From an uncultured Holdemania sp. (GTDB lineage: Bacteria > Bacillota_I > Bacilli_A > Erysipelotrichales > Erysipelotrichaceae): a DNA stretch of 35,393 nt. The position numbers and the translations under genes are program-made. This document shows positions 4,042-34,724 of the stretch, piece after piece. Each line of letters opens with the position of its first letter. Position 1 is the first letter of the stretch. The stretch spans positions 1 to 35,393 of the forward strand of contig CAMQTJ010000020.1 of NCBI GenBank assembly GCA_947037125.1, given 5' to 3'. The notes beneath the pieces were generated by a model. It searched no databases. It was not told where the DNA came from and saw nothing but the letters and a program-made list of their open reading frames with translations.

Positions 4042-5478
4042 TTATTGATTAATAATTTTTTTCATATACTTACTATTAATCCAAAAACTTTGTGTTGTCA
4101 TCCATTCACCATTAGGTAGCTGATTAGCATCTCTTAAGTCACCCTTAACGAATCCTGAATTAAGTTTATAAGCCGACTTCTTAGAATGTGGTCTTATATG
4201 AATGATTGGATTATCTTTAGATTTAGGCAAACTATTTCCAACTTTTTCCCCTACTTTAAAAACCACACCATTTTTTACTGTATCCTGTATATTTTTCCAA
4301 CCACTGTATGCTATATTGTTTAAATCGTCATACGGCATATTCCAAAAGAAAGTTCTATCGAGATGATATTTACCATCGATATTTTTGAATATTACAAATA
4401 AAAACCTTGACTCTATAAAGTAATTATACAATTTAGACTCTTCCCACTCTTCTTTAATAAAATCACTAAATTTAAATTGCTTTAAAGATATATGTTCATT
4501 AATATTACCATCAGATTCAACCCTTACTGTTTTAACAATAACATTAGATTTAACAAATTCTAGCGCTCTATTACTTTTAATTCCTAACATCCCCAAAGAC
4601 AACGAATACCAAAATGCTTTATTCTCTTTATAATCTTTTCCTAATTTCAAGGCAATATCAATATCTGTCATACCTTTGTATTGATTGATTTTCTCTATTA
4701 CGGCATCATCGAAAGGTGTATCTTCAGTTAAATCTAAATTTTTTATAATTGACTCTTCAGATTCTTTATTATTTAAAACATAGTTATTTAGAACATAATT
4801 CATATAGCTATTCTTAAGACAAAAATTACGTTTTCTTGCAGGAATATTATCGCCATAAAATTGTGGTTTTATGCTGTTAATTGCATTTGACCCTTTTGTA
4901 CAAGCTCCAAGATAAAATGTATCTCCCTCGCTTATTTCATGTGCTAACCCAGCTTTAATTTTATTATTAATTGTATTGTAATCATCTATTATAATTTTTA
5001 AATCGTGATTACTTGGTGTAAATAAGGTAACAAACTTAATCACGTAATCAAGTCTTTCAATTGTCTTATCCCTTAAATATTGAACTAGCAATATTTTTTT
5101 TATCTTATTATATAAATGACTCTCATAAAAAAAATCATTAACTGGTTCTTTATAAGATATGTTAGTTATTGACAATCTTTCACCAGCAGCATATTTACCA
5201 TTCTTCAGTAAATTTAAAGGAGTTTGCTTTAACTCTATTCCAACTTTATCAAAATCAGCCATTTGATCACTATTCGGTTTATATCCAAAATAAAATTGTT
5301 CTAAAAAACCACCTAACTGCCCCTTAGCTTTTTCATTAAGCGTATAAGGAACTGTTTCTTGATTGACTTTATATTGACTATCATATTCATTCTTAATATC
5401 TCTAAATGTTTTATTCTCTAATTCTTTAGCATAATTGAATATACTTTCTTCACTACTATCATCATAATTGTATAACAT
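4042..5478 (-). CDS. Type II restriction endonuclease, Sau3AI/MutH family
   Basis: A 478-residue enzyme, close to the ~490 residues of Sau3AI, which cuts before GATC. The N-terminal MutH-like domain has the surrounding motif YFGYKPNS and the catalytic pattern D-x6-E-x-K (Asp75, Glu82, Lys84), the same spacing as in MutH. A second, non-catalytic MutH-like domain fills the C-terminal half and ends in HIRP (427-430) and NGEWMTTQSFWIN (456-468). In Sau3AI this half binds a second site and activates cutting. AAGGAG precedes the ATG. It is divergent from the C5 methylase at 5604, with 125 bp between starts. GATC specificity is inferred from family likeness, not seen directly. Confidence 0.9.
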   Translation of the reverse strand: MLYNYDDSSEESIFNYAKELENKTFRDIKNEYDSQYKVNQETVPYTLNEKAKGQLGGFLEQFYFGYKPNSDQMADFDKVGIELKQTPLNLLKNGKYAAGERLSITNISYKEPVNDFFYESHLYNKIKKILLVQYLRDKTIERLDYVIKFVTLFTPSNHDLKIIIDDYNTINNKIKAGLAHEISEGDTFYLGACTKGSNAINSIKPQFYGDNIPARKRNFCLKNSYMNYVLNNYVLNNKESEESIIKNLDLTEDTPFDDAVIEKINQYKGMTDIDIALKLGKDYKENKAFWYSLSLGMLGIKSNRALEFVKSNVIVKTVRVESDGNINEHISLKQFKFSDFIKEEWEESKLYNYFIESRFLFVIFKNIDGKYHLDRTFFWNMPYDDLNNIAYSGWKNIQDTVKNGVVFKVGEKVGNSLPKSKDNPIIHIRPHSKKSAYKLNSGFVKGDLRDANQLPNGEWMTTQSFWINSKYMKKIINQ

Positions 5479-5505
5479 TTTTTTCTCCTTAATACATATT
5501 TGATC

Positions 5506-5534
5506 TTGCTAAGATTGCCTATATGTTGTATAAT
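5506..5534 (+). promoter_or_regulatory. Candidate promoter of the cytosine methylase
   Basis: TTGCTA (5506-5511) and TATAAT (5529-5534) are 17 bp apart. The leader would be about 60 nt. A second TATAAT-like box near 5580 is too close to the ribosome site to be the main promoter. The divergent restriction gene must be read from the same gap, but I cannot assign its promoter. Confidence 0.4.
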
Positions 5535-5603
5535 AATCCTTAGGTTTATTATATCAGCTCTTAAACAAAGATACTATATAATATAATTATAAAAGGGGTC
5601 TAT

Positions 5604-6854
5604 ATGAAAAAAACAGTTATAGAATTGTTTGCTGGTGTCGGAGGTTTTCGTGTCGGTTTAAATAAAATTAAAAACTTCGATAAAAATGGTAAAGCAATTG
5701 AAAATAAAGATTGGGAATTTGTATGGTCTAATCAATGGGAACCATCAACTAAAGTACAACACGCATCAGATTGCTATAAACTAAGATTTGGAAATAGTGG
5801 ATATCACAGCAATGAAGATATTTCTACGGTAGAAAAAACTAACATCCCTGATCACTCTCTACTAGTCGGAGGATTTCCTTGTCAAGATTATTCAGTAGCG
5901 AGATCATTATCTGGTGAAAAAGGTATTGAAGGAAAAAAAGGTGTTCTTTTTTGGGAAATTGCTGATATTATTAAGACAAAACAAACTCCATTTATTTTAT
6001 TGGAAAACGTTGATCGATTATTAAAATCTCCAGCAAAACAAAGAGGTAGAGATTTCGGTATTATGTTAAGAACATTCAGTGACCTTGGATATAATGTTGA
6101 ATGGCGCATTATAAATGCAGCTGATTATGGATGTGCTCAAAAAAGAAAAAGAATATTTATTTTCGCTTGGGATAAAAACACAAAATATAACAAATCATTA
6201 TCAAGTTACAGCCAAAATGACATAATGCAAAATGAAGGATTATTTGCAAAATCATTCCCATTAAATATATTGTTAAATGACAATAAAGAAATTGATGTAA
6301 CACTAAATGATTTTAAAGATACAGTCGAAATGTCAGAAACATTTCAAGCAAACTTTCAAAATACTGGTATTATGATTAATGGAGTTGTTAAAACAATTAA
6401 AACTACACCTGTTGAAAATAAACCAACAATGCTTCTTGAAGTTATAGAACGTGGTTCAATCTTAGATAGTTACTTCCTTAACGATGCACAAATAGAAAAA
6501 TTTACATATTTAAAAGGTAGAAAAAAAGTTGAAAGAATGAGAACAGATGGACTTCCTTATTTCTATTCTGAAGGAAGTATGAGTTTTCCAGATTGTCTAA
6601 GTTTACCAGCAAGAACAATGTTAACAAGTGAATCTAGTATAAATAGAAGTACTCATGTTATCCATGATTTTAAAACTGATAAATTAAGATATATTACTCC
6701 TGTCGAAGCTGAAAGACTACAATCTTTTCCAGATAATTGGACAAACTCAGGAATGCCTGAAAAAAGAAGGTATTTCATGATGGGTAATGCATTGGTTACC
6801 ACAATAATTAGTCAACTTGAAGAAACATTATCTGAAATCATTACAAAATGTTGA
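5604..6854 (+). CDS. DNA (cytosine-5) methyltransferase, Sau3AI-type
   Basis: A 416-residue C5-cytosine methylase, the length of M.Sau3AI-type enzymes. Motif I is ELFAGVGGFRVGL (7-19) for AdoMet. Motif IV is GGFPCQDYS with nucleophile Cys93. Motif VI is ENV (134-136), motif VIII is QKRKR (179-183), a variable target-recognition region follows, and motif X is MGNALV near residue 398. It should protect the host from the neighbouring restriction enzyme, most likely at the C of GATC. AAAAGGGG lies before the ATG. The full motif set argues for an active enzyme. Confidence 0.93.
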   Translation: MKKTVIELFAGVGGFRVGLNKIKNFDKNGKAIENKDWEFVWSNQWEPSTKVQHASDCYKLRFGNSGYHSNEDISTVEKTNIPDHSLLVGGFPCQDYSVARSLSGEKGIEGKKGVLFWEIADIIKTKQTPFILLENVDRLLKSPAKQRGRDFGIMLRTFSDLGYNVEWRIINAADYGCAQKRKRIFIFAWDKNTKYNKSLSSYSQNDIMQNEGLFAKSFPLNILLNDNKEIDVTLNDFKDTVEMSETFQANFQNTGIMINGVVKTIKTTPVENKPTMLLEVIERGSILDSYFLNDAQIEKFTYLKGRKKVERMRTDGLPYFYSEGSMSFPDCLSLPARTMLTSESSINRSTHVIHDFKTDKLRYITPVEAERLQSFPDNWTNSGMPEKRRYFMMGNALVTTIISQLEETLSEIITKC

Positions 6855-6856
6855 GT

Positions 6857-6888
6857 AAAAAAAACATATCATTATGATATGTTTTTTT
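6857..6888. terminator. Bidirectional terminator between methylase and AIPR genes
   Basis: A near-perfect palindrome, ACATATCAT / ATGATATGT, lies between an A run (6857-6864) and a T run (6882-6888). It can serve both convergent genes. Confidence 0.78.
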
Positions 6889-6920
6889 AAAATTCTAATA
6901 CATCTTAGTTTCTTCGACTT

Positions 6921-8678
6921 TTATTTAATCTCACTAACTTTCATTGGTATCTTATAAGTTTCAAATATTAATTTTTCCACAATTTTTTTATTTGCCCAAA
7001 ATGTTCTTTTAGTAATATAACTACCATTAGTAAACTCAAATGTATCTGAACTATCTAATGCTTTAGGTCTAATATGAAATCCCATATCATCACTTACTTT
7101 TATAAATCTCTTCTCATCACCTATATTAAAACTTTTTATTGTAGAGATATATACATTTTTAGCTTTGTCTTCAAATTCTTTAAATGAGAAGTTATCAATG
7201 TAGTGAATATCAATGACTTTCTTGTTTATATCTTTTTCTGCTACAAATACCTTAAATACGTTATTAACTGCCACCTTAAAAGAAGAATTTTCATAATCAA
7301 CCTTTGATTCATTTTCATATAAATCTGAAAATGTAGTTCTAGGAAATGGAAATGCTTCGCAACATTTTCCATTTATCATACTAATAACTCTAAAATAAGT
7401 TATTTTTTTTCCAATACGATTAAAATAATCACTTATCTCTTTCACAAAGGAATAAGCACTAACATTTTCACCATTTAAAATTTTTATTAGTTCATTTTTT
7501 TCTCTGGAAGTTAATTCAATTGAATCGCTAGAATTGGTTGTAGAATTTTTTATACAATTAATCACTTTATTAAATAATTCGTCTTTCTTAAAATCTGAAA
7601 CATTCAAATTACTATTTAACATTAGCATTATGTTTTCGAACACAAAATATAAATTAATCAACATTTCATCATATACTCTATCATCACAATTTATTTGACT
7701 AACAACAAAAGATCCAAAATAGTTTTTACCATAACTCAAAATTATTTTTGATACGGCACTATATTCTTCTTTCCTAACAACATCTTTTTTAAAGCTATCC
7801 CACCATAAATTAACCTCAATAAGTTGTTTGATTTGTTTAATACACTTTGATGAAGTATTTTCATCTATCAGTTTTCTAATTTCAATCGTGATTTTTTTAA
7901 GCTGTTTTTTATCGAAATTTTTGCTTTTACCAGGCTTACCCGTAATTGTTAACCACATTTTCTCAAAATCAATTAAATCACACCCTATATTTGCACCAAT
8001 TTCTTCTCCTTCTTTTAGAATTTTAATTTCTTTTCCTATATATTCATTAATACTTTTGACGTCATCAGAATTAGCCAAATGAGTTTGTTCAAAAATTGGT
8101 ATTTGAGTGTTTAATCCATTTGTTATTTGAGCAACTTGATTAATATTACCCTCTATTAAAATAGTTTTAACTATTATACTTTCAAGTAAAGAATCCATTG
8201 TTATAATAGTTTTGAAACCTGGTATGCTCAATATATTTTTCAATAATTCTCGTTCGATATATTCTGCTGCACCAAAAAAATTAGTTAATGTTTGAGCGCC
8301 ATTAATTACGCAAATATTCAACGGTTTAACAGTTATTGAACTCCCATATCTCCAAATGTCTTCAGTACTAAATATTGTTATCCCATTATGACAAAACCAA
8401 AATTTTTTCCATAAATTTAAATCAGCTTTACATACACAAAGTTCAGCTTCTTTATAAATATTATCAATTTCATCACGTACAGTTGAATTTTGATTAACAT
8501 AATCTAATTTTTCATATAAACAATTTGATAAATATTTCTTAAAATTTAATCCAATTTCATTACCTATTTTATTATTTTTAAGACCATATCTAACATTATT
8601 GTTAAATAAAAAATTTCCCGTAACATTATATATTTTCTTAATTTCTAAAAAAGAAATATTATAAATAAAACCTCCCAA
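6921..8678 (-). CDS. AIPR-family abortive-infection protein, main reading frame
   Basis: This 585-codon frame holds the AIPR domain found in phage-defence proteins. Family landmarks are LFNNNVR (24-30), FCHNGITIF (95-103), INGAQT (125-130) and TNGLNTQIP (186-194). The last ~130 residues match the C-terminal MutH-like domain of the neighbouring Sau3AI-like enzyme: HIRP at 535-538 and NGSYITKRTFWANK at 551-564. Both proteins end with this module in their last 54 residues. The catalytic D-x6-E-x-K is absent, so the module would bind DNA, not cut it. The frame has no good start. Its first possible start is a TTG at 8678 with no ribosome site, and a TAG lies 18 nt earlier. The missing N-terminus is in the overlapping frame 8645-9010, joined by a -1 shift at 8687-8693, for about 696 residues in total. 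Confidence 0.8.
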   Translation of the reverse strand: MGGFIYNISFLEIKKIYNVTGNFLFNNNVRYGLKNNKIGNEIGLNFKKYLSNCLYEKLDYVNQNSTVRDEIDNIYKEAELCVCKADLNLWKKFWFCHNGITIFSTEDIWRYGSSITVKPLNICVINGAQTLTNFFGAAEYIERELLKNILSIPGFKTIITMDSLLESIIVKTILIEGNINQVAQITNGLNTQIPIFEQTHLANSDDVKSINEYIGKEIKILKEGEEIGANIGCDLIDFEKMWLTITGKPGKSKNFDKKQLKKITIEIRKLIDENTSSKCIKQIKQLIEVNLWWDSFKKDVVRKEEYSAVSKIILSYGKNYFGSFVVSQINCDDRVYDEMLINLYFVFENIMLMLNSNLNVSDFKKDELFNKVINCIKNSTTNSSDSIELTSREKNELIKILNGENVSAYSFVKEISDYFNRIGKKITYFRVISMINGKCCEAFPFPRTTFSDLYENESKVDYENSSFKVAVNNVFKVFVAEKDINKKVIDIHYIDNFSFKEFEDKAKNVYISTIKSFNIGDEKRFIKVSDDMGFHIRPKALDSSDTFEFTNGSYITKRTFWANKKIVEKLIFETYKIPMKVSEIK

Positions 8679-9010
8679 GTAGAAAACTTTTTTCTACATA
8701 TCGCCTTGTTTAATTTATTAAATTGCGACCAATAAATTCTTCGTTCTTCATCCCAATTTTTAAAGATAATTACTGGATGGTACGTTATATACTCTTCAAA
8801 TTTAGCTATGACTTCCATATAATCAGTATCTATTTTATTATTATTTTCTAAATATATTATTAAATTCTCCTCTCGAAGACTGCTTTTATTAACACCGTCA
8901 ATTATGAATATATTATTACTAATATTAGTAATGTTTTCCTTAGAGTTTATATCTATATTTCTTTGATTACTTAGTATTTTTATTCCTTTAGTGAATGTAT
9001 TTGTATTCAA
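8645..9010 (-). CDS. N-terminal part of the AIPR protein (frame 0, before the shift)
   Basis: This 121-codon frame starts at a TTG (9008-9010) with a perfect GGAGG at the right distance. It begins 2 bp after the stop of the FRG gene, so the two are translationally coupled. Its first ~108 residues run into an AAA AAG pair, after which the frame reads 13 more codons and stops. A -1 shift at that point joins it to the 6921-8678 frame. The join gives a continuous strand-helix before the LFNNNVR motif, as AIPR proteins have. By itself the peptide matches nothing I know. It is either a programmed shift, a mutation, or an error in a run of six A. Confidence 0.6.
   Translation of the reverse strand: MNTNTFTKGIKILSNQRNIDINSKENITNISNNIFIIDGVNKSSLREENLIIYLENNNKIDTDYMEVIAKFEEYITYHPVIIFKNWDEERRIYWSQFNKLNKAICRKKFSTWEVLFIIFLF
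8679..8697 (-). other. Slippery heptamer A AAA AAG inside a hairpin
   Basis: On the minus strand the frame-0 codons AGA AAA AAG contain A AAA AAG (8687-8693), the heptamer used for -1 shifting in dnaX. It lies in a perfect 8-bp inverted repeat, GTAGAAAA / TTTTCTAC, with a 3-nt loop. A GGGAGG follows 3 nt later. Sliding back one base leads directly into the AIPR frame. Confidence 0.55.
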
Positions 9011-9012
9011 CT

Positions 9013-10035
9013 TTATACCTCCTTGAACATTATTTTGTATAAAAGAAACCTTTTCTTAATTTCTTTCAATATATTTTCTCTATCTTCAACAGCGTAATTT
9101 ATTCCATTATATCCATTAATGTAATTTGTAATATCATATTCTTCTTTACGTAAATTTCTTAACATTAGTTTTTTATTTATTTCTGTTACTTCTTTTATAT
9201 TTCCTTCTCTATCTTTAATCATAGTCAGCTCATAATCAATTCTATTCAGATATGTTTTAATTTCATCATTAAAGTTTACATATTTACTATCGTAATTGCT
9301 AGTTTTAAATTTATTTTTCACTATTTCACTAATATTAGTTTTTTCAGGAAAAATATATGCCTTGTCAATTTGAAATAAAATTTGTAATTCACCTAAAATT
9401 TGAGATTTTTCTTCCTTTTTAATATTTATCATTCTATAATAAATATCATTTATAGGATGAAATTTATCTCCAGGAAAAAATATAAAACCACCCTTTTGAA
9501 CTCTAATTCTCTCATTATTATAACTATGTGAAAAAACTTTAAAATTTCTATAATAAGGTTCTTGGTGTTTATTTAACATATTTTCATAAAATTGTTCTAT
9601 GTAATTGGAATGAGGAGAATAATGTTCTGGGAATGCAAAAACATAAATTACACCATCATGCTTATTAGTCATTTTACTATCGCTAGACTTATTATCCTGA
9701 CATGCAAAATACAGAGCAACCAATACATTAAATGATATATCAAGCATTCTACTTATTTCTAAATAGTGTTGTGCTTCAATTGCTTTTTCAATATTAGTCG
9801 CATCGCATTTAATCATATTATAATCGCTTAACAGTTCGAAAATGTGTCCTTCTTTTTTTACCCATTCGTTATTTCTAAACAATGAAGGCATAAGCTTAGT
9901 CAACTTATAATCTTCACTTTCTCCTCTAAATGCAATTAAGGTCTTGGAATCGAAATAATTTTTATGATTATTTTCTAATTCTATAACTTGTTTGTAAATT
10001 AAATCAATATATTTTGATACTAAAGAAGCATACAT
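9013..10035 (-). CDS. FRG-domain protein (defence-associated)
   Basis: A 340-residue protein with the FRG domain, named for its Phe-Arg-Gly motif: AFRGES (35-40) and MPSLFRN (49-55). The second block, AQHYLEISRMLDI...VALYFA (88-111), corresponds to the family's QH-G-PTRLLD...ALYFA, although the canonical PTR is changed here. FRG domains occur in many phage-defence loci, and their activity is poorly known. The first in-frame start is at 10122, but AAGGGGG sits 6-7 nt before the ATG at 10035, and the promoter at 10077-10105 would lie inside the longer reading. I therefore take 10035. It is the first gene of an FRG-AIPR operon. Confidence 0.82.
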   Translation of the reverse strand: MYASLVSKYIDLIYKQVIELENNHKNYFDSKTLIAFRGESEDYKLTKLMPSLFRNNEWVKKEGHIFELLSDYNMIKCDATNIEKAIEAQHYLEISRMLDISFNVLVALYFACQDNKSSDSKMTNKHDGVIYVFAFPEHYSPHSNYIEQFYENMLNKHQEPYYRNFKVFSHSYNNERIRVQKGGFIFFPGDKFHPINDIYYRMINIKKEEKSQILGELQILFQIDKAYIFPEKTNISEIVKNKFKTSNYDSKYVNFNDEIKTYLNRIDYELTMIKDREGNIKEVTEINKKLMLRNLRKEEYDITNYINGYNGINYAVEDRENILKEIKKRFLLYKIMFKEV

Positions 10036-10076
10036 ATAAATCCCCCTTAAATAACTATAATCAATACTGTATGTAA

Positions 10077-10105
10077 ATTTTACCATATAAATGTAAGGGC
10101 TACAA
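10077..10105 (-). promoter_or_regulatory. Promoter of the FRG-AIPR operon
   Basis: On the minus strand TTGTAG and TAAAAT are 17 bp apart, with an extended TGG just before the -10. The -35 region carries TTTGATTGTAGC, shared base for base with the guaA promoter at 19407-19435. The leader to the ATG at 10035 is about 35 nt. Confidence 0.55.
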
Positions 10106-10168
10106 TCAAATTTTAAGTACACATATTAATTACAGTATTTATAATATTGTATTAATACTTTTTTTTAT

Positions 10169-21151: not shown

Positions 21152-23344
21152 TTATTTTATCCATGTTAACTCAGTTGAGTCCCATGTATATGTTCCAGGT
21201 TCCATATTATTAAATATAGCTTCCGATCCAAGAACTAGCTTAGAATTTTCATCTGTTCCTGATACCTTATCATAACATATCAGTTTACCATTAATAGTAA
21301 GGGTAGCGCTAGATGGAACAATTAAAGATTTATACGCTTCAAAAATTACATTTTTAGGAATAGTGAAGTTATTTGCTGTATATTCAATAGCTCCACCAAT
21401 TGTATAACAGTAGTTAGGTTTTATAACAAATTCATTTGTTATAGCTAGATTATCAGTATAGATTTGTAACATATCAGTGTCACTTAAACCTATTATATTT
21501 TCTTCATTTCCTTTGTTAATACCTACCACAAATCCACTAATTCTTCCCTGAAGGTCATAAGTGTTTCCACTTCCATAGTTTAGAGTTCCAGAATTTACAT
21601 ATGCAACGTATACTCTATACTGATTATCAGGTGATTTTACCTCAGTATGCGTGTTATTTAATGTAACATTAGCGTTTTTCCCGCTCAAATCATAACCTCT
21701 ACCACATTGAGTTGTTGCACCGAATATCTTGACATTATCAAAGTCTGCTTTCACATTCTTAATTGCAATTACAGCAGCTCCGTACCCATTGGTTGGAGTA
21801 CCACACAAATCAGTGTTAGGTACATTTAAAGTTAAATTTTTAACTTTAGCATCCGCTGTGATTTTTATACCTACATTGATTGTATATCCATTACCATCAA
21901 AAGTTATAGAATCATCGATTAAAATAGCAGCCGTAAGATCCGTTATATCGGCTCCAAGAATAATAGTATCACCATCTTTAGCATTCTCAACAGCTTTAAT
22001 AAGCTGATCAGCTGTTTTAACAAGAGGTACCGAAGCATCTAGTTCAACTGTAACTCGACATTCTGCAGTTTTTCCATTATGACTAGTTGCTGTTATTGTT
22101 GCAGTACCTTTTGATACAGCTGTTATCGTTCCATTAGAAACGGTAGCAATTGTTTCATCACTTGAACTATATGTAATAGTTTTGTTAATTGCGTTGCTTG
22201 GGCTAATGTTAGCTGTAACTGTAGCCACTTCACCAACTAAAATATTTAGTGTTTTAGGCGTTAGTGTTACTCCGGTAACATCCAAGTTTGGAATTTCAGG
22301 TTGAATTGGCTTTACTGTTGGTGCTACTGTCGGTTTTACTGTCGGTTTAACTATCGGTTTTACTGTCGGTTCAACTGTCGGTTTAACTGTCGGTTTAACT
22401 GTTGGTTTAACTGTCGGTTTGACTGTTGGTGATGGGGTTGGTTTTGTGTTAATTTCATTACCATCAGCAGTTTCCACAACAGGATTTTCTACAACTTCTG
22501 TTTTCTCTGCTTTTATTTCTCCTGTAACATTTGATTTTTCATCTGTTAAAACTGTTTCAATTTTTCCCTTACCTTTTGTTTCAATTTTAGTTTCTGTTGC
22601 TACATTTTCAATTTTAACACCTTTTGAAATTGAAACAACTGTACCTTCTGCAGATTTACTTACGATTACATTTTCAACGTCTGATTTAATATTCATTTCT
22701 GTTTTAGAAGCGATGTCTAACATATTAACTGGGGCGTTTACCGTCAAAACAGATCCTTCTGCATTTTTCCCAACTAAAACTTTATCAATTTTTGAATCTG
22801 TAGTGATATCTGCTTTACTATTAACAGTAATATCATTTATTACAGAATCTTCGCTTGCTTTAACTGCACTTTCAAATGCTCCTTTATTTACAACAATAGA
22901 AGTCGCCTTACCAGCTATTTCTAATGTAGCTTTTTGTTCAAGTGAGATATTTGAAGTTTCAGAATCTTTATCAAAAACTATTCTTACATCCTTCTTATTT
23001 GCTTCAATGTTTAGAACTTTACTATTTTCAATATGAACGGAATTTAAACCGCCACCTTGAATATTTAATTCCCCTTGGATAACACAGTTTTTAATATAAA
23101 CTGTTCCTTCTCCTACTGCTTTATCAACAAGTAAATCTCCTGTAACTGTTACGTTAGAAAGAGTTACTCCATCAGATTTTATGATAACTTCATCATAAGT
23201 ACCTGGTTCATCATAAGTGCCTGCTTCTTCGAAAATCTTTACAGAATCAGTCGGAAGTATAATTTCATCTTCATCCTTGGCACATCCAACTGCTACAGTT
23301 AGTAGCAAGGCTACTGATAATGCTAATCTCAATATTTTTTTCAT
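21152..23344 (-). CDS. Surface lipoprotein with beta-helix and Big2 domains
   Basis: A 730-residue lipoprotein. The signal peptide ends in the lipobox AVGC, with Cys20 or 21 as the lipid anchor. Residues about 35-290 show repeated short strands (VTVTGDLLVD, CVIQGELNIQ and similar) that suggest a right-handed beta-helix. A proline-rich wall-spanning linker of ten PTVK-type repeats follows. Then comes a bacterial Ig-like Big2 domain (VTGVTLTPKTLNILVG...ITYSSSDETIATVSNG), and a second beta-helix-like end (LVKTADQLIKAVENAKDGDTI). It is exposed on the cell surface and may bind polysaccharide or host glycans. A good promoter lies at 23406-23434. Its ribosome site is weak (GGAAAGAG). Confidence 0.82.
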   Translation of the reverse strand: MKKILRLALSVALLLTVAVGCAKDEDEIILPTDSVKIFEEAGTYDEPGTYDEVIIKSDGVTLSNVTVTGDLLVDKAVGEGTVYIKNCVIQGELNIQGGGLNSVHIENSKVLNIEANKKDVRIVFDKDSETSNISLEQKATLEIAGKATSIVVNKGAFESAVKASEDSVINDITVNSKADITTDSKIDKVLVGKNAEGSVLTVNAPVNMLDIASKTEMNIKSDVENVIVSKSAEGTVVSISKGVKIENVATETKIETKGKGKIETVLTDEKSNVTGEIKAEKTEVVENPVVETADGNEINTKPTPSPTVKPTVKPTVKPTVKPTVEPTVKPIVKPTVKPTVAPTVKPIQPEIPNLDVTGVTLTPKTLNILVGEVATVTANISPSNAINKTITYSSSDETIATVSNGTITAVSKGTATITATSHNGKTAECRVTVELDASVPLVKTADQLIKAVENAKDGDTIILGADITDLTAAILIDDSITFDGNGYTINVGIKITADAKVKNLTLNVPNTDLCGTPTNGYGAAVIAIKNVKADFDNVKIFGATTQCGRGYDLSGKNANVTLNNTHTEVKSPDNQYRVYVAYVNSGTLNYGSGNTYDLQGRISGFVVGINKGNEENIIGLSDTDMLQIYTDNLAITNEFVIKPNYCYTIGGAIEYTANNFTIPKNVIFEAYKSLIVPSSATLTINGKLICYDKVSGTDENSKLVLGSEAIFNNMEPGTYTWDSTELTWIK
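22314..22433 (-). repeat. Ten tandem 12-bp repeats coding a PTVK linker
   Basis: Ten exact-length units start at 22314 and each further 12 bp, with the plus-strand consensus ACTGTCGGTTTA. They encode Pro-Thr-Val-Lys and variants in the lipoprotein. Units differ by one to four bases, so copy number could vary by slippage. Confidence 0.9.
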
Positions 23345-30467: not shown

Positions 30468-33400
30468 TTATACCTCTTTATTAACTTTTTTTTGCTTTGC
30501 ATATCTAACTTTTAACCCTAAAATCGCTAAAATAATTGCAATTCCAATACCGATTAAAATAGATGATAGATTACTTTTTTCTGACTGAATAACTGGAATA
30601 TCAAGGGATATTTCACCTTTTACACCACCTATTGCATAGCTAGAAAAACTATTTACTGTTGCAACTATTTTATCGTCAATAATTTTAGTCGCTAGATATT
30701 CAATGGTTTTATCATCTTTGTAATGAACCAAAACATATTCTTCGTATCCAGTTAAATTTTCAACATCAAGTTCCATAGTCAAGTTTTTTTCTGGTTTATA
30801 TACGTCGCCTGTAAGGACATTTTCTAATGAAATATCCCACATTGTAATTACATCTACTTGGTCTGCTTTTTCTTTTAAAGTGTTAAGAGATGTCATTCCC
30901 TTTGCAAAACTTGTAATAGGTGTACAATGAATTTTTATATTAGCTGGTAGGCCGTTTATTTTAACACCATTATCAATATCAGTATGGTTTTTTTCAGCCA
31001 CTTTGCTAACAGATTCTTCAAGAATATCCTTATTAACAAATAACGCTTTTTGTGTGTCATCTAATTGATTATATTCTTCGTACAATAAAAGGATTGAAAT
31101 CTCGTCAGAAGTTGATAGCTCATCTAGTTGTTTTGTAAGAAGGTATTCACTTTTCGCAACTTTAATCATTAAGTCTTTTGCAATATCTGATGCTGCCACA
31201 GGTATTTCAATTTCACCAAAAATATTTTTTGTATCTAAACTTTTTCCAGTTAATTTTTTGTACACATCTTGGATCTCTTTTATTTTTGCACTAAAATTTT
31301 TCCTAACCTCTTCCAGTGAAGTTTTAAATTCCTCTTGTAGTGACAAACTTTTAATTCTATTTACAGCGATAAATAGTTTTTCACTATTATTAACAGAATC
31401 CTTCTCAGGTTTTGTTAAACTATCATATTCCTTTTTAAGGCTATCAACGATATCTTTACTATCACTATTAATTTCACCTAGATTATCAATTTTTTCAATT
31501 ACATTTTGAGCCTTATCAGTAACAGGTCTTTCAACCACTGTATCACCAAAAATTGTAATTGCAAATTGTGCACTTAGTCCTGTATCAGCACTTTTAGCAG
31601 TGATAATTACCTGCGGAACTTCAATGCTGTTTGGAGCATTAGCAACAACTAATCCATTTTCATCAACAGTTGCAAAGTATGTATTAGACGACGACCATAC
31701 AACATTTTTGTTTGTTGCATCTAAAGGAAGTACGGTAGCATTTAACTGTAATGTGCCATCAGTTTCAAGAAAACCCATCGTTTTTTCATCTGTATATGAA
31801 ACTGAAATTGATGTAACTGGAACATTATCGCTAATTTCATCAAGTACAGTGAATGTTATATTTGGTAAGGTTGAAAACATATCATTATGAACATCTGCAC
31901 CTGTGTTTATATCACCAATTTCTTTTATTTTATCTCTACCTGCTTCATCACCAAACCAAAAAGTGTTTATCTGTCCACTAGAAAGAGTGTTATCTCCAAT
32001 CATTTCTTCAGTTGTGATTATTGTGATTGTATTATTTGTTGCTAAATCCCACTGATTACATCTACCTTCAAAAATTTTACCATCTAAAGTGTATTCAACC
32101 CTTGAAGCTTTACCTTCCCAATATATGTCTTGATAGCAAGGATTATAGATTGTCGCAAGCTTATAGATTGGCATTGTTATGCCTTTAAATGATATGTTTA
32201 AAGTATCTCCTATCTTGATTTTATCATTATCACCAGTATTGTTTTTAACTATAATCTCAATTTTTCTTGCATCTACAATTTTATACTCGGTTTTTCTTTT
32301 ACCGTCATCAGTTTTTGCAGTAATACCAATAATATTGGCACCATTTAAAAGATTTACAGTATAGCTACCATCAGTTGTATCTAATATTTGACCATTTAAA
32401 CTCACAGTAACTTCACCTTTATCAGATGCCGCTTTAAAATTGTATGGAACAGTATCCCCTTTATCAAAGTAGATAGTATCATATGTTGTTTGTGTTATAT
32501 TATGAGTAATAATTGCTTCTGATGGTTCATTATTAACATCAAAAATAACATAAGCCGTGTTTACTTCAGCTGATTTATCCCATGTGTTACCTTTATATTC
32601 ATGAGCATCATAGGTTACCTTTACTATTGAAACACCTTCTTTAACTGATTCAACTGTAATTCTGTCATCACTGTCAATTCCTGATAATATTATGCTGTTA
32701 CCAGCAATAATTTCAAAATTAAAGTTAGGTCTTTGTACATCATTATTTATTGAGTCATTAACAATTTGTGAAAGTCTACGTGGATAAATTTCAGTTTTTT
32801 CTCCAATTTTCATCTCTTTGTAGTCATATTGAAGCCATAAATCTTCCTCAAAATTATCAGGCACACCTATTATATTGTTTAGTGTAAATTTTGGAAACAC
32901 AATTGTCTCACTTGTATCGTCAGCAAGTACCGACAAATCAAAACTTACAGATTGACTATCAACATTTGCGGTAATTGTAACAGGTTTTTTTGTTACTTTT
33001 AAAGCTTCAAGTGAACCATTTTCACTAATGGAAATAAGTGTTGGATCACTACTTGTCCACAATGGTGCTACTACTTCTTGTTCTTGATTGCCTGAATAAG
33101 AACCGACACAGTTTAGTTTTATTTTAGTACCAATATGAATTAAAGTAGGAATATTAGTTATTTCAAGACTACCTTCGTTTAATGTTCTTTCAATTATTAC
33201 AACTTCAAATGAAGCAGAGCGATCATTATATGTTGCAGTTATAGTAACTGGTTTATCTTTTTCAGTTGGCTTTAAAGCTGTTATTTTTCCAGTCTTGAAA
33301 TAGCTTCCAACTTCAACAGATACAATATCAGGATCACTGCTACTAAATAAAACTCCCGAAATATTAACATTAAACACATGCGTTTGCCCAACTTCTAAAG

Positions 33401-34685
33401 GTTTTAAAGGAATATTAGAAACAACAATTGTTTCTAATTCGTATATCTTATCTAAGGCAGCTGTAAGTATATCCACATTAGTCACATTTACCTTTTCTGC
33501 ATCTGTTAATTTGTTGTATTCCTCACTTACCATCAAAATATTAGCTTTATCTTTATCTAAAGTGATAGTATCAATTTGTGGAATACTGTTAATCAGCTCT
33601 ATTACTTTTTTTGTTGGCGTCGCTTCTACCCAATTTTCATCAATAGTAAAAGTAACGTCAGGTAATCTTCCAAAATTATTTTCTTTCACAATACCAGATC
33701 CAAAATCCAATCCATCAGAACTGTCTTTTGATTTTTCATAAACAGTACCATTAGATAGGTTATAAGTACCAGGAATTAGACCAGTAATTTCTAAGCCCCA
33801 TTTTTCAGAGATTTGATCACTATTAATACCATTAATAGTTTCTTGTTGTGCAATATCAGTTGTAAATGAAACATATGATTTTTCTCGATCCCATTTAAAT
33901 TGAAATGGAGGCCATGGCGGACCAGGTTTTCGAATCGAATTTATAGGGACACTAATATCAGAAAAGAATATATTTACTGAATCCTTACTAGGATATTTAA
34001 AGCTAATTTCAATTTTTTTACTTTTAAATTCTCTGGTTTCAGTTCCAAAAGCTATGCTATTGTCGTTTGTAAAGGTAACCAAATCAGCTCCAATTATAAA
34101 AGTTTCCCCTTCTAAATAGTAAAAAGTGTCACCACTTCCACTACTTTCGCTATTGTGATATTGGTTTAATTGTTTATCCGTTATTTCAATAGCCAAAGCA
34201 TACTTTGTATCATCAGATATAGTTTCGACACTTTGAAAAGAACTATCTTCATCAAGTAGAGCAGTTGTTTCATCATCCTTTGCATAACTATTTTCATCCA
34301 TTGGTGGATTCGTAACCACTGGAACGTTTAGCTCATGTATTATTACTAAAGCTTGTACTAAATTTTCATAATTTAGTACCAACAACTTATCTTCAGCCGT
34401 TAAACTATTATAAGAATCACTACATTTTTCAATGTTAATTTGATCATCGAAAGTAATGTCATCAATATTGGGTAAAGAATCGATTAAATCCATTACATCT
34501 ATTGTACTAATTGGTTCAACTTTTTCATCAATAACTAATTCATTATCGTTTATTTCATTTTCTTGTACTACTTGTTCTTTAAGTAATTGAGATGCTTTAA
34601 TTGAATCCGCAAATACTGTGTTTGTGCCTGCAAAAAGGTTGAAAATCATGCAAACAGCTAGTGTTAGTGAAAGATATTTTTTCAT
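30468..34685 (-). CDS. Giant membrane-anchored surface protein of the cobalamin operon
   Basis: About 1405 residues. It has an N-terminal signal peptide (cleavage likely after VFA near residue 26) and a C-terminal membrane helix (SILIGIGIAIILAILGL) with a basic tail; no LPxTG sorting signal. Between them (longer numbering) are helical repeats of the type I..LP.ID.IT....Y..LT..EK..V.N near 70-124, 367-423, 1068-1121 and 1196-1237. Two beta domains end in LPDVTFTIDEN (~347) and LPNITFTVLDE (~946), and Big2-like Ig domains lie at ~430-592 and 960-1053. ATG 34703 is part of its own ribosome site (ATGGAG), so I start at 34685. First gene behind the B12 riboswitch. Predicted to reach through the wall and bind cobalamin or a carrier; binding is unproven. 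Confidence 0.8.
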   Translation of the reverse strand: MKKYLSLTLAVCMIFNLFAGTNTVFADSIKASQLLKEQVVQENEINDNELVIDEKVEPISTIDVMDLIDSLPNIDDITFDDQINIEKCSDSYNSLTAEDKLLVLNYENLVQALVIIHELNVPVVTNPPMDENSYAKDDETTALLDEDSSFQSVETISDDTKYALAIEITDKQLNQYHNSESSGSGDTFYYLEGETFIIGADLVTFTNDNSIAFGTETREFKSKKIEISFKYPSKDSVNIFFSDISVPINSIRKPGPPWPPFQFKWDREKSYVSFTTDIAQQETINGINSDQISEKWGLEITGLIPGTYNLSNGTVYEKSKDSSDGLDFGSGIVKENNFGRLPDVTFTIDENWVEATPTKKVIELINSIPQIDTITLDKDKANILMVSEEYNKLTDAEKVNVTNVDILTAALDKIYELETIVVSNIPLKPLEVGQTHVFNVNISGVLFSSSDPDIVSVEVGSYFKTGKITALKPTEKDKPVTITATYNDRSASFEVVIIERTLNEGSLEITNIPTLIHIGTKIKLNCVGSYSGNQEQEVVAPLWTSSDPTLISISENGSLEALKVTKKPVTITANVDSQSVSFDLSVLADDTSETIVFPKFTLNNIIGVPDNFEEDLWLQYDYKEMKIGEKTEIYPRRLSQIVNDSINNDVQRPNFNFEIIAGNSIILSGIDSDDRITVESVKEGVSIVKVTYDAHEYKGNTWDKSAEVNTAYVIFDVNNEPSEAIITHNITQTTYDTIYFDKGDTVPYNFKAASDKGEVTVSLNGQILDTTDGSYTVNLLNGANIIGITAKTDDGKRKTEYKIVDARKIEIIVKNNTGDNDKIKIGDTLNISFKGITMPIYKLATIYNPCYQDIYWEGKASRVEYTLDGKIFEGRCNQWDLATNNTITIITTEEMIGDNTLSSGQINTFWFGDEAGRDKIKEIGDINTGADVHNDMFSTLPNITFTVLDEISDNVPVTSISVSYTDEKTMGFLETDGTLQLNATVLPLDATNKNVVWSSSNTYFATVDENGLVVANAPNSIEVPQVIITAKSADTGLSAQFAITIFGDTVVERPVTDKAQNVIEKIDNLGEINSDSKDIVDSLKKEYDSLTKPEKDSVNNSEKLFIAVNRIKSLSLQEEFKTSLEEVRKNFSAKIKEIQDVYKKLTGKSLDTKNIFGEIEIPVAASDIAKDLMIKVAKSEYLLTKQLDELSTSDEISILLLYEEYNQLDDTQKALFVNKDILEESVSKVAEKNHTDIDNGVKINGLPANIKIHCTPITSFAKGMTSLNTLKEKADQVDVITMWDISLENVLTGDVYKPEKNLTMELDVENLTGYEEYVLVHYKDDKTIEYLATKIIDDKIVATVNSFSSYAIGGVKGEISLDIPVIQSEKSNLSSILIGIGIAIILAILGLKVRYAKQKKVNKEV

Positions 34686-34724
34686 TTTAAGTTTACTCTC
34701 CATCTATTTTTTGAATTTTTCCAC

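Follow-up and report, generated by a model that had tools for sequence, protein, structure and literature searches.

A MutH/Sau3AI-C-like tail on an AIPR-type protein points to a possible second arm of a Sau3AI-type restriction cassette

Why would an AIPR-type protein end in a domain resembling part of the restriction endonuclease encoded beside it? The question is raised by a locus of an uncultured Holdemania sp. in the window (the whole stretch of 35,393 nucleotides that was analysed). The four genes at 4042-10122 are best explained as one composite defence cassette, in which a Sau3AI-type restriction-modification (RM) pair is joined to an FRG-AIPR pair (Table 1). AIPR genes have often been tied to RM systems (PMC2292703, PMC3506569). 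The endonuclease of the window matches PDB 4pxg with an E-value of 2.6e-54. The FRG domain (PF08867) reached the Pfam gathering score of 25 bits in the window (51 bits) and in L005, L040, and L045 (42.8 to 44.6 bits). FRG domains belong to the ADP-ribosyltransferase (ART) superfamily and are proposed NADase-type effectors of prokaryotic immunity (PMC9503650); the FRG gene of the window is predicted to encode such an effector. A preliminary description of this DNA had missed the FRG gene and cast the AIPR protein itself as the abortive effector. We amend this and regard the neighbouring FRG gene as the likely effector. Elsewhere in the window, two large Big_2 Ig-like-domain proteins (30468-34703 and 21152-23344), likely surface proteins, are unrelated to the cassette.

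Table 1. Positions of the cassette genes, their motifs, and the five tail-bearing proteins
Feature	Position	Strand	Evidence or remark
Sau3AI-family type II restriction endonuclease	4042..5478	(-)	NF040973 E 4.5e-147, 490.8 bits vs cut-off 300
C5-cytosine DNA methyltransferase of the Sau3AI-type pair	5604..6854	(+)	PF00145 E 2e-65; PADLOC MTase_II
AIPR-type C-terminal ORF	6921..8678	(-)	585 aa, TTG start; AIPR core, helical linker, MutH/Sau3AI-C-like tail
MutH-like, Sau3AI-C-type tail, predicted to be catalytically dead, residues 383-585	6924..7532	(-)	hhalign E 2e-17; AF2 model; Foldseek; Z-scores
TKRTFWANKK block; Trp aligned with MutH Tyr212	6984..7013	(-)	Alignment, MutH numbering
HIRPKA motif, residues 535-540; Arg aligned with MutH Arg184	7059..7076	(-)	Alignment, MutH numbering
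AIPR core motifs FWFCHNGITIFS and VINGAQT	8289..8402	(-)	Profile comparison and alignment of relatives
N-terminal piece of AIPR gene, ORF of 121 aa in another frame	8645..9010	(-)	Alignments to relatives; HMM match
FRG-domain gene, directly upstream of AIPR gene	9013..10122	(-)	PF08867 E 2.8e-13; PADLOC PDC-S15 2.7e-34
Tail-bearing protein 1	Window 6921-8678 plus 8645-9010	(-)	Frame-broken AIPR
Tail-bearing protein 2	G397, L005/L014		Another genus; 729 aa, intact
Tail-bearing protein 3	G641 = L040/L044		Ca. Stoquefichus massiliensis
Tail-bearing protein 4	L045		Companilactobacillus huachuanensis
Tail-bearing protein 5	L075		Mobile-element contig, IMG/VR

The AIPR ORF of the window represents only the C-terminal ~80% of an AIPR gene, a second point that the preliminary description had missed. 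It overlaps the N-terminal ORF, which matches positions 14-107 of the HMM profile, and the intact relative from another genus aligns with both pieces. Relative to L075, L014, and L044, the window gene has an internal deletion of ~40 codons, accompanied by a shift of frame, near 8670-8700, and the full-length relatives (L005/L014, L044, L045, and L075) measure 713 to 743 aa. The window probably carries a broken gene, or else the assembly is at fault. Therefore, the conserved system must be read from the relatives.

The assignment to AIPR made in the preliminary description holds in part. The kinship is real, as the core aligned with canonical AIPR in hhalign with an E-value of 2e-12 over 207 columns and the FW..NG and NGxQT motifs are common to both, but it is remote and is missed by PF10592. 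Specifically, the window ORF, L005, L040, and L045 gave no match to PF10592 at the Pfam gathering score; the canonical AIPR proteins L041 and L015 match it at 2e-33 and 5e-31, respectively. None of the Pfam, NCBIfam, and PADLOC models recognises the AIPR core of the tail proteins, and the PADLOC models AbiU and MzaE matched neither the window ORF nor the four full-length tail proteins. Furthermore, no alignment was found between the N-terminal region of the tail proteins and that of canonical AIPR, which is nuclease-like. Judged from these comparisons, the core is best described as a divergent relative of AIPR and not as a PF10592 member.

The similarity previously noticed between the tail of the AIPR protein and the nearby Sau3AI-type enzyme proved to be real. 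The two window proteins aligned in pairwise BLASTP with an E-value of 2e-5 (26% identity, 97 columns), and the AIPR-group profile aligned with the Sau3AI profile with an E-value of 1.2e-12 over 140 columns. In hhalign, the tail matched the Sau3AI C-domain specifically (probability 98.9%, E 2e-17, score 115.8), with scores at the level of noise for the Sau3AI N-domain (15.2) and the canonical AIPR C-termini (13.6). The highest score among 100 column-shuffled alignments against the Sau3AI C-domain was 21.0, which rules out chance similarity. The shared span of 54 or ~130 residues given earlier is indeed present but too short; the modelled domain covers about 195 to 200 residues, corresponding to the whole Sau3AI C-domain. 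Searches of PDB sequences with the protein or the tail (phmmer/hmmsearch) returned no true match, and single-sequence hhalign of the tail to MutH was weak (probability 6). Kinship with MutH is thus based on fold and motif.

The predicted fold agrees with this assignment. The AF2 model of residues 383-585 (pLDDT 85.9, pTM 0.81) matched the Sau3AI-C/DNA complex 7xm0 in Foldseek at E 9.5e-8, and nothing else fell below 0.3 besides Sau3AI-C and MutH. In VIA-align, the model gave a Z-score of 13.9 to Sau3AI-C (2reu; 181 residues, 3.0 Å) and 12.4 to MutH on unmethylated DNA (2aoq), the next unlike fold being MvaI at 4.9; these matches are partly conditioned, as the input alignment of the model included Sau3AI C-domains. 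For that reason, a model built on AIPR proteins only serves as an independent check of the fold. Though poor overall and with weak E-values, it had MutH and Sau3AI as its nine best PDB matches. The full-length AF2 model was poor (pLDDT 49.5), and the AIPR core was not read from it. The structural likeness to Sau3AI-C and MutH expected in the preliminary description is thereby borne out.

What could such a domain do? In the MutH alignment, the catalytic Asp-Glu-Lys residues (D70/E77/K79) are absent from all five tails, and the tail keeps the Arg184 position and an aromatic residue (Trp) at the Tyr212 position. The arginine lies in HIRPKA, whose MutH counterpart is QIRPKA. It is followed in the window by the NG..ITKRTFWANK block, of which TKRTFWAN is invariant in 5/5 AIPR tails. 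Tyr212 has an important part in how MutH reads methylation (PMC3848065), and Sau3AI-C has been interpreted as a duplicate of MutH in which catalysis was lost and which now serves as an effector-site/effector-binding domain (PMC548270). Since the tail likewise lacks the Asp-Glu-Lys residues and keeps the Arg184 position and the aromatic residue, it is, as far as its residues tell, a catalytically dead nuclease domain of the DNA-binding kind. By extension, it may bind GATC. Alternatively, the tail could sense cleaved DNA or a Sau3AI-DNA complex instead of intact unmodified GATC, in which case the suicide arm would wait until the nuclease has engaged foreign DNA. Such a reading would fit the co-occurrence of the tail proteins with the nuclease itself, not just with the methyltransferase, in 5/5 loci. 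However, structures of MutH-like domains have duplex DNA as the substrate (PDB titles 2aoq, 2aor, and 7xm0), and no end-binding feature was seen. We consider this alternative very unlikely.

The preliminary description spoke of a module shared with the nearby restriction enzyme. In the tree, the five tails form one clade (support 100/100) apart from all Sau3AI C-domains, and the fusion therefore appears to have happened once, with no re-copying from the neighbour. Recent copying from the neighbouring Sau3AI is ruled out by the same clade, and we amend the earlier view to a single old origin of the tail. Is it then a functionless relic, carried passively with the restriction cassette? In two of the five cassettes, the reading frame of FRG or AIPR is broken, as might be expected of such a relic. 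In contrast, identity was higher in the tail (0.40 to 0.52) than in the AIPR core (0.32 to 0.44) in 10/10 pairs of the five proteins, which argues for function. Moreover, the tail motifs do not vary between members from different families and orders, and the gene set has been retained despite rearrangement. Among the readings considered here, we give the relic the least credence.

The gene company of the tail is constant. The five tail-bearing proteins known were found by AIPR or FRG homology and never by a Sau3AI query. In every case (5/5), the FRG gene immediately precedes the AIPR gene, and the block also contains genes for a C5 methyltransferase and for a Sau3AI/MutH-type endonuclease. Four more AIPR proteins beside Sau3AI-type genes, for which the preliminary description had suggested a search, thus exist besides that of the window, and a tail occurring independently of GATC systems, which would have told against its proposal, was not seen among the five. 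The five cassettes show three gene arrangements with differing flanking genes. FRG-AIPR faces the methyltransferase gene in two loci (the window and L014). In the other three (L040, L045, and L075), it is read in the same direction as the methyltransferase gene and follows it, separated from it in L045 by a Vsr gene (TIGR00632). The FRG gene of L075 (L075:7989-8986) is split in two ORFs. Within the stretches examined, none of 10 other Sau3AI loci (L017, L020, L022-L025, L042, L043, L063, and L078) had AIPR/FRG motifs, and an AIPR motif was likewise absent from the examined flanks of other FRG genes in the phylum. No relatives came from the first narrow-pattern scan of genome contigs or from two narrow-pattern viral scans, and tblastn of plasmid and phage sequences gave none except one Sau3AI. 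The gene company could partly reflect passive clustering in a mobile cassette.

The NF040973 cut-off was reached by an endonuclease adjoining a C5 methyltransferase in the window, L014, and L040. It was not reached in L045, where the neighbouring enzyme (L045:2647-4098) is a very divergent Sau3AI-like protein (164.8 bits) with a C-domain lacking HxRP. The AIPR tail beside it keeps HVRPKA. Given the divergence of this enzyme and its loss of HxRP, the specificity shared by tail and enzyme may fail in L045. Two further observations concern composite loci of this kind. An HNH-type gene (L045:9437-10408) overlaps the AIPR gene of L045, and its end is similar to phosphorothioate-DNA restriction enzymes (NF045808, E 3e-10). 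L063:3402-12591 is another composite Sau3AI locus. Its 1311-aa ORF joins a Sau3AI-type enzyme to an extension of ~840 aa, part of which is sigma-factor-like, and the genes that follow are a ParB/DndB-like one and one for a PLD/SNF2-type helicase.

A FRG-AIPR pair without the MutH-like tail was observed at L064:5635-11389, away from Sau3AI, adjoining DUF262-like and Dam-like methyltransferase genes (named by inspection). The tail would then be an addition to a more general pair, and FRG-AIPR looks like a general module. Both pairings bear on the idea that the tail tempers the restriction enzyme. Here, the dead tail would compete with Sau3AI for GATC or bind Sau3AI, thereby limiting the cutting of host DNA, and FRG would be a separate matter. 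DndB, described as AIPR-related, is a negative regulator of its system (PMC3506569), and the Sau3AI domain to which the tail is homologous is the effector-site domain. However, such a role leaves unexplained both the strict pairing with FRG (5/5) and the tail-less pair of L064. We consider it quite unlikely.

The best explanation, for which we would claim just short of an even chance, is that the tail reads unmodified GATC and the AIPR protein switches on FRG as a backup to restriction. The methyltransferase would mark the GATC sites of the host, leaving the tail to read unmodified GATC in foreign or replicating phage DNA. Binding to GATC would change the AIPR protein so that the FRG enzyme is released or activated. 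The ART-type activity of FRG, either NAD+ consumption or ADP-ribosylation, would finally stop the infected cell once restriction has failed. Discrimination of methylation by the tail, the coupling of AIPR to FRG, and the enzymatic activity of FRG are steps that we infer; the mechanistic link between AIPR and FRG is suggested by the adjacency of their genes.

The same parts could also serve as a guard against loss of the cassette. The AIPR tail would then read host GATC, and loss or shutdown of the methyltransferase would let unmodified sites accumulate, upon which FRG would kill the cell and so stabilise the cassette instead of fighting phage. L075 speaks for such a guard through its location on a mobile element, where TcpA/FtsK-like and replication genes are also present, as does the co-directional placement of FRG-AIPR downstream of the methyltransferase in three loci. 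Nonetheless, Sau3AI alone already provides addiction of this type, and sequence cannot separate the guard from phage sensing. We regard it as unlikely.

Returning to the phage-sensing explanation, we tentatively propose, with distinctly less than even confidence, a two-arm system that has not been described. One GATC-reading fold would be used twice, in Sau3AI for cutting and, as a dead domain on an AIPR switch, for triggering a FRG suicide effector, NAD-consuming or ADP-ribosylating, as long as unmodified GATC persists; FRG-AIPR would be a general module with an exchangeable DNA reader. In the open-licence literature searched, neither FRG nor Sau3AI was found described together with AIPR. Genes for AIPR and FRG proteins occur widely in defence islands, frequently next to restriction systems. 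A fused reader of known fold and likely specificity would offer a direct handle on them, with a predictable trigger (unmodified GATC) and a named partner effector, and the structures of MutH and Sau3AI allow the design of point mutants of the tail. If true, a restriction system and a suicide system would be wired to the same DNA mark.

Among known systems, Sau3AI-C (2reu, 7xm0, and 4pxg) and MutH (2aoq and 2azo) have a fold in common with the tail over ~181 residues, with HxRP at the Arg184 position and an aromatic residue at the Tyr212 position. The catalytic triad is absent from Sau3AI-C, as from the tail. Sau3AI-C, however, belongs to a nuclease, whereas the tail is fused to an AIPR-type protein; Sau3AI has HIRPH where the tail has HIRPKA, as in MutH, and the tails form their separate single clade. 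The AIPR/AbiU family (PF10592, PADLOC AbiU) has the FW..NG and NGxQT core in common with the tail proteins (profile E 2e-12). Its canonical N-terminus carries DGGxD...QSK (with a weak Mrr_cat match in L015), to which the N-terminus of the tail proteins is not detectably related, and canonical AIPR/AbiU proteins lack the extra MutH-like tail. MzaE of the Mza system is likewise an AIPR-type protein in a methyltransferase-linked defence locus. However, the Z1 and MutL partners of Mza are absent here, where FRG and Sau3AI are found instead, and the tail proteins have no MzaE match. PADLOC lists PDC-S15 as a single-gene FRG candidate, whereas FRG has AIPR as its partner in all five loci here and, without the tail, in L064. 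PrrC, kept with the EcoprrI type I RM system, is a suicide effector that acts as a backup to restriction. The proposed system would work alike, but with other protein families and with a type II instead of a type I RM system. In contrast to PrrC/EcoprrI, a Sau3AI-like domain for reading DNA is part of the putative sensor itself.
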